Source: Lachnospiraceae bacterium
GTDB lineage: Bacteria > Bacillota > Clostridia > Lachnospirales > Lachnospiraceae
Direction of reading: 5' to 3'
DNA: 46,379 nt
Assembly (NCBI GenBank): GCA_017938285.1
Contig: JAGBBW010000039.1
Location: forward strand, 1 to 46,379
The position numbers and the translations under genes were made by a program. The number at the start of each line of letters is the position of its first letter. Position 1 is the first letter of the stretch. Positions 36,527 through 39,410 of the stretch are shown here, piece by piece. The notes beneath the pieces were generated by a model. That model was not told the DNA's origin. It made no database searches and was given only the letters and a program-made list of their open reading frames with translations.

Positions 36527-37057
36527 TTATATTCTTTTCAAATACTTCACCGGCACTTCCTTCGTCAGCCAGACTCCGTTCTCCGCCAAATAAAACACAT
36601 AGCCCTCCTGTGCCATTTTCCCTGTCAGCACTTTATAGACCACCGGTGAACCATGGCGTGAACCCACCTGCACCGCCGTATCATATTCTCTGCTCAAATG
36701 TACATATAACCGGCTTTTTGAAATCAGCCCCTGCTGTTCAATCGATGCTGTATACTTTTCCCCTGTTCCGTGCCAGAGAAATTCCGGAGGCATTTTCTGT
36801 TCCAGTTCTACATCCACCGGAACAGAATGCCCCTGATTGGCACGAATCAGTGTCTTGTCCTCATTAAAGGAATAGCGCATTTTTTCATCCGTTCGCACGA
36901 TTTCCTCCAGCAATTCCATATCAAAGGGCTGGGTACAACGAATCCCCTCAATCAGTTCCGATACTTTCGCCCAGCCATGTTCATCCAGTGTAATTCCAAT
37001 GGTTTCCGGCTTGTGTCGCAAAATCAAAGAAATGTACTTACTTGTATTTTTCATCAT
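36527..37057 (-). CDS. kptA: RNA 2'-phosphotransferase (Tpt1/KptA)
   Basis: 176 residues. S-K-Y-I-S-L-I-L-R-H-K-P near the N-terminus, G-W-A-K-V-S-E-L-I, R-Y-S-F-N near 70, R-A-N-Q-G-H-S, L-W-H-G-T-G near 100, and H-L-S-R near 128 give the Arg-His-Arg-Arg tetrad of the NAD-dependent enzyme. Transfers an internal RNA 2'-phosphate to NAD. Two adjacent ATGs at 37057/37054 follow AAAGGAG; an earlier ATG touches the site, and further starts lie in the upstream gene. Confidence 0.9.
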   Translation of the reverse strand: MMKNTSKYISLILRHKPETIGITLDEHGWAKVSELIEGIRCTQPFDMELLEEIVRTDEKMRYSFNEDKTLIRANQGHSVPVDVELEQKMPPEFLWHGTGEKYTASIEQQGLISKSRLYVHLSREYDTAVQVGSRHGSPVVYKVLTGKMAQEGYVFYLAENGVWLTKEVPVKYLKRI

Positions 37058-37086
37058 AAATTTCATACTCCTTTCCTGCCTTCTCT

Positions 37087-37797: not shown

Positions 37798-38478
37798 TCA
37801 ACCATCCTTTTCCAAATACGCCAGTACTTCAAGCGGTGATTCCAGCTGACAAAATTCCGGTTTCCGTCCCGACTGCTGTGTCGTTCCCTCCTGTAAATAC
37901 CAGGCTGCCTGCACTGCTTTCATTCCTAATCCACTGGCGGCTTCCAGCTCCCTACTTCCGCCGTCCCCTACATACAGACATTCCTCCGGTCTTACGTCCA
38001 GCTCCTTCATACACCTGAAAAAAATCTCCGCATCCGGCTTCTGGACTCCCTGTTCGTAGGAAAGATACGCTGCTTCAAAGTATGGAAACAAGGCGCATTC
38101 CCGGATAACCTTGGCTTCTTCCGAAAAACAGTTGCTGATAAGCCCGATACGCAGCCCCTTTTCTTTTAACTTCTCCAGAAGAGGAAAAATTTCCGGGTGT
38201 ACGTGGTTAAAACATTCCAGCTTTGCGGCAATTCTCTTTTCTATCAGCTTGTGAAACAGTTCTTCGGAATAACGGTCCGTTTTTCTCAGAATCATTTCCA
38301 CTACTTCTTCCAGTGTCATTTTCCCGGTGCTCCGGTCGTCCTCCGTAGGCCGCCAGAGTTCACGGAACCGTTGCTCTGGAATGCCGATATCCGCCGCCAT
38401 CTGGGCACCAAAATACAACGGACTCTGATAGTGGGTAATTAAGGTTTCATACATATCGAAAATTACGGCTTTTGTCAT
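37798..38478 (-). CDS. HAD superfamily hydrolase
   Basis: 226 residues. Motif I is F-D-M-Y-E-T: nucleophile Asp present, but the usual second Asp is Tyr, as in haloacid-dehalogenase-like members. Motif II I-S-N, motif III Lys in V-Q-K-P-D, motif IV Y-V-G-D-G. Cap domain at about 15-85. Phosphatase or dehalogenase; substrate unknown. Its start overlaps the toxN stop by four bases. Confidence 0.85.
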   Translation of the reverse strand: MTKAVIFDMYETLITHYQSPLYFGAQMAADIGIPEQRFRELWRPTEDDRSTGKMTLEEVVEMILRKTDRYSEELFHKLIEKRIAAKLECFNHVHPEIFPLLEKLKEKGLRIGLISNCFSEEAKVIRECALFPYFEAAYLSYEQGVQKPDAEIFFRCMKELDVRPEECLYVGDGGSRELEAASGLGMKAVQAAWYLQEGTTQQSGRKPEFCQLESPLEVLAYLEKDG

Positions 38479-39014
38479 GTTGTCTCCCTTTTCTTTAAGT
38501 TATACTTCTCACATTCCTTCTCTAATCTTTGAAAATCCAAACACCTGTCTTTTCCTTTGTAGTTAGATTCATTCATACAAAGCTTATACAAACAATTTGC
38601 TTTATTGATTATAACACTTGCATTTTTACGACACCAATTCAGTTCGTCAATACATAACTGTTTATAATGCTTATCTCCAGCAGAATCCATTTTTTCTTCC
38701 TTTAAATTCACTTTAATCAACTGCTGTTCTTCCACTGGAATCATAAGATTATAATTTAGTACACCTAACAATTTTCCGTGCTTATCAAATATTTTATCAA
38801 AATCTGCTCTGGGACTCATTTTTTTATGTTTTTCAACGGGATGAGATAATGGAATTAGATATTTTCTTTCATTGCATATCACAACGATTCCAACATAAAT
38901 GCGATGCTGCTTACCTATTTGAGGTGATACCGATGATACCCTGTTATCTATATTATGTAAGTTTCTTATATATTTCATATCTATCCGATATAGATTTAGT
39001 CTTTCCTGCTTCAT
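38475..39014 (-). CDS. toxN: Type III toxin-antitoxin system ToxN/AbiQ-family toxin (endoRNase)
   Basis: 179 residues from ATG at 39014 (AAGGAGTGTT); an ATG 16 codons earlier lies within the terminator stem. It aligns along its length with ToxN as I recall it. The landmarks, in order, are Y-I-R-N-L-H-N-I-D-N-R-V; Y-V-G-I-V-V with K-Y-L-I-P-L-S-H-P-V-E-K-H; L-L-G-V-L-N-Y-N-L-M-I-P-V; a C-terminal helix pair Y-K-Q-L-C and W-C-R-K-N-A-S-V-I-I-N-K-A; and L-D-F-Q-R-L-E-K. ToxN cuts A-rich RNA and is held inactive by the ToxI RNA, giving phage defence. At the position of the active-site Ser in P-L-T-S-P this protein has His. Confidence 0.8.
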   Translation of the reverse strand: MKQERLNLYRIDMKYIRNLHNIDNRVSSVSPQIGKQHRIYVGIVVICNERKYLIPLSHPVEKHKKMSPRADFDKIFDKHGKLLGVLNYNLMIPVEEQQLIKVNLKEEKMDSAGDKHYKQLCIDELNWCRKNASVIINKANCLYKLCMNESNYKGKDRCLDFQRLEKECEKYNLKKRETT

Positions 39015-39032
39015 AACACTCCTTGTATAATA

Positions 39033-39065
39033 AATGTGGCTATGCTTTTGAAGCATAGCCACATT
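39033..39065 (-). terminator. Terminator between the antitoxin RNA and toxN
   Basis: Perfect 15-bp stem (39033-39047 / 39051-39065) with a three-base loop, followed on the minus strand by TTATT. In known type III loci such a terminator sets the antitoxin to toxin ratio. Confidence 0.85.
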
Positions 39066-39130
39066 GTGAAATCACCCACAAGCGATTCCAACGCTTTTAC
39101 AACTTCCACTTAACGGTAGGACTCACCTCT
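39066..39130 (-). ncRNA. toxI: ToxI-like antitoxin RNA
   Basis: Between promoter and terminator the minus strand reads AGGTGAGTCCTACCGTTAAG and on. This lines up with the start of the ToxI repeat of Pectobacterium as I recall it (AGGTGA, TACC, TTAAGTG kept in order and spacing). GGT/ACC can pair. Downstream, AAGCG/CGCTT pair around a seven-base loop, and GTGGAA can pair with TTTCAC around them. Only one full unit plus a partial GGTGATTT second unit is visible, in place of the usual array. Confidence 0.65.
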
Positions 39131-39133
39131 ATT

Positions 39134-39164
39134 ATTATATTACCATATTTCGAAAATTAGTCAA
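39134..39164 (-). promoter_or_regulatory. toxI-toxN promoter
   Basis: TTGACT (39159-39164) with either TAATAT at 16 bp (39137-39142) or TATAAT at 19 bp (39134-39139). Confidence 0.55.
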
Positions 39165-39382
39165 TAGAAATCCTTCATAAAGCATATCTGCGCTTTCTCA
39201 CTGTCAAATCCCTGCGCCCGGTAAAACTCATGGGCTTCTTTTCTCGCTCCGCCGGAATTTAAACGTATTTTCCTGATTCCCTGCTTCTTTGCCCAGCTCT
39301 CTGCCTGTAGCATTAACGCCCTGCCAATTCCCTGCCGTCTGTATTCTGTCGAAACAGCAAAACCAAGAATATTTTCTACATT
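39161..39382 (-). pseudogene. GNAT acetyltransferase remnant (C-terminal part)
   Basis: Open frame of 73 codons with no start: N-V-E-N-I-L-G-F-A-V-S, then Y-R-R-Q-G-I-G-R-A-L (the acetyl-CoA binding R-x-x-G-x-G/A box) and the motif B region E-A-H-E-F-Y-R-A-Q-G-F. It ends at a stop inside the toxI promoter. The N-terminal half of the domain is absent. It is a broken gene beside the toxin-antitoxin locus. Confidence 0.7.
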
Positions 39383-39410
39383 TGACTTTTCCCTCCTCCT
39401 TTGATAGAAT
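39382..39410 (+). promoter_or_regulatory. Promoter for the TPR gene
   Basis: TTGACT (39382-39387), 17-bp spacer, TAGAAT (39405-39410), about 40 bases before the TPR start. Confidence 0.55.

Follow-up and report, generated by a model that had tools for sequence, protein, structure and literature searches.

The DNA analysed here, a 46,379-nt window of contig JAGBBW010000039.1 (GCA_017938285.1) from a gut Lachnospiraceae bacterium, carries a homologue of toxN, the gene of a phage-defence toxin family, preceded by a single ToxI-like RNA unit. Our results suggest that this chromosomal locus is probably functional and forms a type III-like toxin-antitoxin pair of the ToxN/AbiQ family, whose antitoxin would be made of one ToxI pseudoknot and a dedicated 3' hairpin, with no array; this reading was reached by sequence comparison. 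The single-unit layout is common to many relatives of the locus, whereas such antidotes are usually described as repeat arrays, and a natural minimal ToxI lets one ask whether ring assembly, stoichiometry and phage defence need an array. The elements of the locus are the following.

38475..39014 (-), toxN, encoding a ToxN/AbiQ-family endoribonuclease homologue of 179 aa with R38, S57, H58 and V60
39019..39024 (-), ribosome-binding site AAGGAG, read from the sequence
39033..39065 (-), terminator-like hairpin of 15 bp whose T tract is weak, from fold and covariation
39067..39090 (-), second hairpin of 9 bp, conserved in the single-unit clade and covarying
39092..39098 (-), AAAAGCG junction, presumed ToxN cleavage site, placed by conservation
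39095..39130 (-), single ToxI-like unit of ~36 nt, ending in an A-rich 3' tail, from a descriptor and alignment A1
39127-39105 (-), pseudoknot with stems S1 (GGU/ACC) and S2 (UCC/GGA), from the descriptor
39137..39164 (-), putative promoter TTGACT, 16 nt, TG, TAATAT, from a consensus scan

The toxin and its single ToxI-like unit

Residues 6-171 of the toxin match Pfam ToxN_toxin (PF13958, 7.5e-44), the AbiQ model of PADLOC matches at 2.6e-32, and PDB sequences match as well (4ato 8.1e-13, 7d8o 2.3e-10, 2xd0 1.8e-9, 4glk 4.1e-5); no NCBIfam model matched at E <= 0.1. These profile searches bear out the ToxN-like protein that an initial annotation had read in this DNA, and the window toxin is a ToxN homologue with a predicted ToxN fold. 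Its start codon is likely the ATG at 39014, behind the AAGGAG, and the GTG at 39062 that opens the longest reading frame is disfavoured. The gene is under purifying selection, with a median ratio of nonsynonymous to synonymous substitution rates (dN/dS) of 0.067 (range 0.034-0.123) over the first 168 codons, ungapped, in the 35 pairs with dS between 0 and 3 (16 sequences, 120 possible pairs, 105 computed). A viral or plasmid origin was considered and rejected: a seed search of viral_contigs returned no relative, one phage match stood at 29.9%, and all 123 plasmid records were below 60% identity.

Upstream of toxN there is one ToxI head (GGTGAGTCCTACC) and one AAGTGGA. The 5' limit of the unit is set from promoter geometry and its 3' limit from the junctions of arrays. 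A seed search of genome contigs yielded 51 relatives (loci carry L numbers below), and 49 upstream regions were compared: the window, 47 of the 51 loci, and L080 from a class sample. With a strict pseudoknot descriptor, whose matches are paired by construction since pairing is required, exactly one unit was found in 47 of the 49 regions, window included, and dinucleotide shuffles gave 0.03 matches per region; the other two, L025 and L057, have no ToxI head. A lax descriptor returned one match in 37 regions, two in nine, three in one and none in two, and its 11 extra matches fall in the second element (8), in the terminator (2) or across both (1, L080). The window shows a single match even with the lax descriptor, and Tandem Repeats Finder, run on 38900-39400 with a minimum score of 30, reported no tandem repeat, so that in place of the tandem array by which type III antitoxins are recognised the window has one unit. 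The near-single-copy ToxI-like RNA of a ToxN-type locus that had been proposed is therefore confirmed, and as a clade-wide state, with the correction that the supposed fragment of a further unit is a separate conserved hairpin.

Additional antitoxin units elsewhere in the genome of the window were also considered and rejected, since an RNA model of the clade, R1, gives one match there under strict filters. Rfam has nothing in the window at gathering scores, and four matches at 38950-39250 (miRNA, snoRNA and queA models), far below those scores, were taken as chance. Rfam is equally silent on 8 comparator loci, which makes its silence uninformative.

Single units and arrays among the relatives

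The comparators were 30 upstream regions of ToxN loci, drawn from the class sample, the genome of the window and its genus. Of these, 22 repeat themselves beyond all 60 shuffles; among the remaining eight, the lax descriptor assigns two or three diverged units to L067, L069, L070 and L072, L080 and L083 are single, and L071 and L074 were assigned no unit count. For 29 comparators the strict descriptor counted three units in 8 and two in another 8, leaving 9 with one and 4 with none, and the lax one counted three in 10, two in 10, one in 5 and none in 4, which indicates that the strict descriptor undercounts diverged units. The window's own genome has two more ToxN loci, L002 and L003, each with its own different array. 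In L003, as in L077, L134 and L135, the array consists of two ToxI-like units of ~48-53 nt, the first of which contains a small inverted repeat.

In a tree of 103 ToxN rows (exact duplicates and proteins below 140 aa removed, labels assigned by us), one clade, with support 97/91, unites 47 rows that bear the single-unit label, among them L025, which was labelled single although its contig ends before the unit. This clade is nested in a 55-row clade (support 100/99) that also holds the single-unit loci L107, L121 and L123, the arrays L104, L105, L114 and L120, and the unlabelled L113. Judged by eye, the four arrays have no second hairpin ahead of the terminator; in L104, a close relative of the single-unit clade, the repeated units measure 49 nt and their loop carries an inserted inverted repeat. 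As far as these sequences go, the single-unit state is a clade trait. Three further single-unit rows, L083, L129 and L138, sit among arrays outside the clade and look like sporadic shrinkage.

In a sample of the family, matches to ToxN were found in 63 of 397 Lachnospiraceae genomes, and of 49 loci read (the best 29 and 20 hand-picked from the remainder, fragments left out), 20 had a single unit with the hairpin, two a single unit without it, 24 were arrays and three were unclassified, the units being counted by eye with the guidance of a lag score. The search profile was built mainly from single-unit toxins, and this bias means that the share of 20 in 49 is probably too high for the family. 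The model R1 (107 positions) matches 43 of the 397 family genomes, weak matches, arrays and remnants included, and 18 of 391 genomes in the class sample, where only three, from the window's own family, exceed 50 bits. Some loci of Lachnospiraceae type (L025, L035, L041 and L048) lie in records titled as Bacteroidota or Gastranaerophilales bins and are probably misbinned; L035 has the same ToxN sequence as L094, which comes from the window's family.

Single-unit ToxI-like RNAs also occur where toxN is missing or broken (L139, L140, L141, L142, L154, L155 and L157), and in L140 an acetyltransferase-like open reading frame occupies the toxN start site. Such loci fit a costly toxin. They would also be expected if this were a decaying ToxIN locus whose array had shrunk to one unit on the way to loss, as would the single-unit loci outside the clade, where the toxin of L083 has stops and L129 and L138 adjoin two-unit relatives. 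We find this very improbable for the clade itself, given its conserved layout, its covarying extra hairpin and the median dN/dS of 0.067. Purifying selection and covariation together argue against simple decay, and neither indicates activity or stoichiometry.

RNA structure, active site and proposed mode of action

Alignment A1 holds 43 RNAs and omits L025, L027, L035, L046 and L057 of the 47 loci. Across it, the structure composed of S1, S2, the second hairpin and the terminator hairpin is formed in 95.5% of cells, and sliding the partners lowers pairing to 32.9-48.0%. Two-sided changes affect 13 pairs, against a shuffle mean of 7.3, and none of 500 shuffles reached as many; they are compensatory at 7 of the 9 pairs of the second hairpin and occur at 6 of the 10 counted pairs of the terminator hairpin. 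The fold of the window RNA lies 4.36 standard deviations lower than those of shuffles. In array relatives the S2 sequences are different yet complementary, a pairing that the descriptor itself demands.

The AAAAGCG junction is invariant in all 43 aligned RNAs, and 46 of the 47 head-bearing regions have AAAAGC no more than 50 nt from the head, the exception being L080. The same motif joins the units of the arrays L105 and L120, and is not used so in L104 and L114. On the 5' side, a consensus promoter scan of 38950-39300 found two sites, the one listed and one on the plus strand, against a shuffle mean of 1.1, so the promoter call is weak by itself. The nearest TTGA[C/T/A] begins 36-37 nt ahead of the ToxI head in 43 of the 55 regions, out of 61, that allowed the measurement, a spacing which would place the transcript start within a few nucleotides of the unit.

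At the positions of the active-site residues Lys33, Thr52, Ser53 and Lys55 the window toxin has R38, S57, H58 and V60, the first two conservative and the last two not. The altered motif noted at the outset, His for Ser53, thus stands and extends to Val for Lys55, but it recurs across the family. In a first alignment the Ser53 column held 18 His, 16 Lys, 2 Arg and 1 Ser in 37 single-unit rows, and 27 Ser and 1 His in 28 other rows. Wider sampling weakened this contrast, as Ser is present in the single-unit loci L099, L101, L102, L103 and L108 and His in the array systems L105 and L132, besides L002; we therefore rejected the change as unique to single units or strictly tied to them. The tree sets the 22-row His group apart from the Lys/Arg group (20 rows), which five Ser rows adjoin, and this separation suggests that a basic residue at the Ser53 site was probably gained twice in the clade. 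Only in the window's close group inside the His group does Val, once Ala, take the place of Lys55; L080, L100 and L119 retain Lys.

From these elements a mode of action can be proposed. Transcription would start 2-4 nt ahead of the pseudoknot, so that the 5' end of the unit would come from initiation and not from cutting, and one ToxN cut at the AAAA/GC junction would make its 3' end. The second hairpin would replace the next repeat and keep the junction single-stranded between two structured elements. The released ~36-nt unit would remain on ToxN and block its active site, in a ring assembled from separate transcripts or in a smaller complex. Most transcripts would stop at the hairpin ahead of toxN, and read-through would yield little toxin; when transcription halts, for instance during phage infection, the short RNA would decay and ToxN would be freed. 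It had been argued initially that the complex must differ from the known ring or else be inactive, a necessity that the sequences do not show; a ring depends on processed single units, and separate transcripts could supply these. A two-domain, non-repeated antitoxin, in which the pseudoknot and the second hairpin grip one ToxN in a 1:1 or other non-ring complex and the basic residue at the Ser53 site marks independence from array cutting, appears doubtful to us.

Several observations weigh against the proposal of a working single-unit antitoxin. Within the clade S1 and S2 show no two-sided change, the S2 sequence is invariant and the third S1 pair is an unpaired A-G in 25 of 43 rows, so support for the pseudoknot comes from likeness to array relatives. 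The covariation analysis suggested at the outset lends support to the two hairpins and, within the clade, none to the pseudoknot. Changes at S2 in L107 and L108 better suit a simple hairpin, and in the minimum-energy fold part of the unit pairs with the second hairpin, which appears only in the centroid. L080, L100, L107, L121 and L123 lack the junction motif. A consensus terminator scan found none and the T tract is weak; of the 15-bp terminator described initially, the hairpin is upheld, and it is a putative terminator. In published systems (here and below, papers cited by PMC number are represented by excerpts), 2.5 repeats were necessary for ToxI_Pa and 1.8 for antiQ, 0.8 being inviable (PMC5086642). 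Finally, Lys33Ala, Thr52Val and Lys55Ala each abolish toxicity of E. coli ToxN (PMC8860590), so that with V60 at the Lys55 position and H58 at the Ser53 position catalysis may be lost or rewired.

A rival reading built on the last point is that ToxN of this clade has lost ribonuclease activity and persists as an RNA-binding protein or leader autoregulator, the locus having ceased to be a toxin-antitoxin pair. H58, V60 and the effect of Lys55Ala in E. coli are consistent with this, but sister single-unit groups retain Lys55 and have Lys/Arg or Ser at the Ser53 position with the same RNA design, and His occurs there in the three array systems named above. Several family loci have a truncated toxN beside an intact RNA, as for a costly toxin, and purifying selection is not decisive by itself. 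We judge loss of activity to be unlikely.

The second element might instead be a degenerate second ToxI pseudoknot with GCG/CGC as its S1, which would give two unequal units binding two toxins. It begins where the next unit of arrays begins, GCG:CGC is paired in 99.2% of cells, and the lax descriptor scores a pseudoknot there in 8 of the 49 regions. Nevertheless, none of the 43 rows shows a two-sided change of GCG:CGC, and in L023, L099, L101, L102, L103 and L119 a CTC opposite GCG breaks the middle pair while a compensatory GGAG keeps the hairpin. The element also has no A-rich 3' tail typical of a unit, and we consider a second unit quite unlikely.

Neighbouring genes and relation to known systems

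The toxN stop overlaps the start of a HAD hydrolase gene (ATGA, 38478-38475), as the initial annotation had it, but the tie that it drew between hydrolase and locus is not supported. Among 88 loci including the window, with flanks of at most about 4 kb and often shorter, HAD was found near this toxin at the window's own locus and otherwise in a single congener (64%, ~1 kb from the toxin; L010 and L005 are the same genome), and the hydrolase was rejected as a component of the system. A weak HAD match of 32% lies near a different toxN, L007. A TPR gene occupies the opposite flank in both the window species and the congener, which suggests a single chromosomal site passed on by descent.

Beyond HAD and a gene of unknown family, about 1.4 kb downstream of toxN, lies a Tpt1/KptA RNA 2'-phosphotransferase gene (36527-37066, minus strand; Pfam 4.9e-44), found among the 88 loci only at the window's own. 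Just upstream of the promoter, 39161-39313 on the minus strand holds a 50-aa open reading frame similar to the C-terminal portion of GNAT acetyltransferases (Pfam 0.0016, under the cut-off), perhaps a truncated gene.

Known antitoxins carry 2.1 to 5.6 repeats (PMC5086642, PMC8860590, PMC12373285), and at least one complete repeat is essential for ToxIN in vitro (PMC12373285). We recognised no report of a natural single-unit ToxIN in the literature searched, which is weak evidence, as the 2012 classification paper (10.1093/nar/gks231) falls outside its coverage. Repeats are required in surveys (PMC8860590), which would miss a repeat-less clade. A candidate structured RNA of 106 bp upstream of ToxN, HMP2_3156, has been suggested to be a ToxI, and a Clostridiales origin is a natural, though not certain, reading of the source (PMC8040213); in length and position, the features compared, it agrees with the RNA of the single-unit clade (107 model positions), and it may be that RNA. 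The source excerpts list three RNAs together with two taxa and are silent on copy number.

Among more distant systems, AbiF/RCd22 of Clostridioides difficile also relies on a toxin-binding RNA antitoxin, uncut between motifs, but with another toxin family and two motifs in one RNA (PMC12373285). CptIN of Eubacterium rectale (4rmo), as described in excerpts, has a natural CptI that is a tandem array of 45-nt units with another pseudoknot type, in a heterotetramer. In AbiQ/antiQ of Lactococcus (4glk) antiQ has 2.8 repeats, of which at least 1.8 are needed (PMC5086642), and the window has one unit. The closest likeness is to ToxIN of Pectobacterium, Bacillus thuringiensis and E. coli (2xd0, 4ato, 7d8o), with which the locus shares the ToxN family and predicted fold, ToxI-type blocks and the order promoter, RNA, hairpin and toxN. 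Those ToxI RNAs have 5.5 and 2.9 repeats, and 3 to 5.6 in E. coli clusters (PMC5086642, PMC8860590), whereas the window has one unit and a second hairpin, with His for Ser53 and Val for Lys55. Since repeats are a listed criterion for type III systems (PMC5086642, PMC8860590) and the clade has none, we file the locus as a ToxIN variant and not as a standard member.
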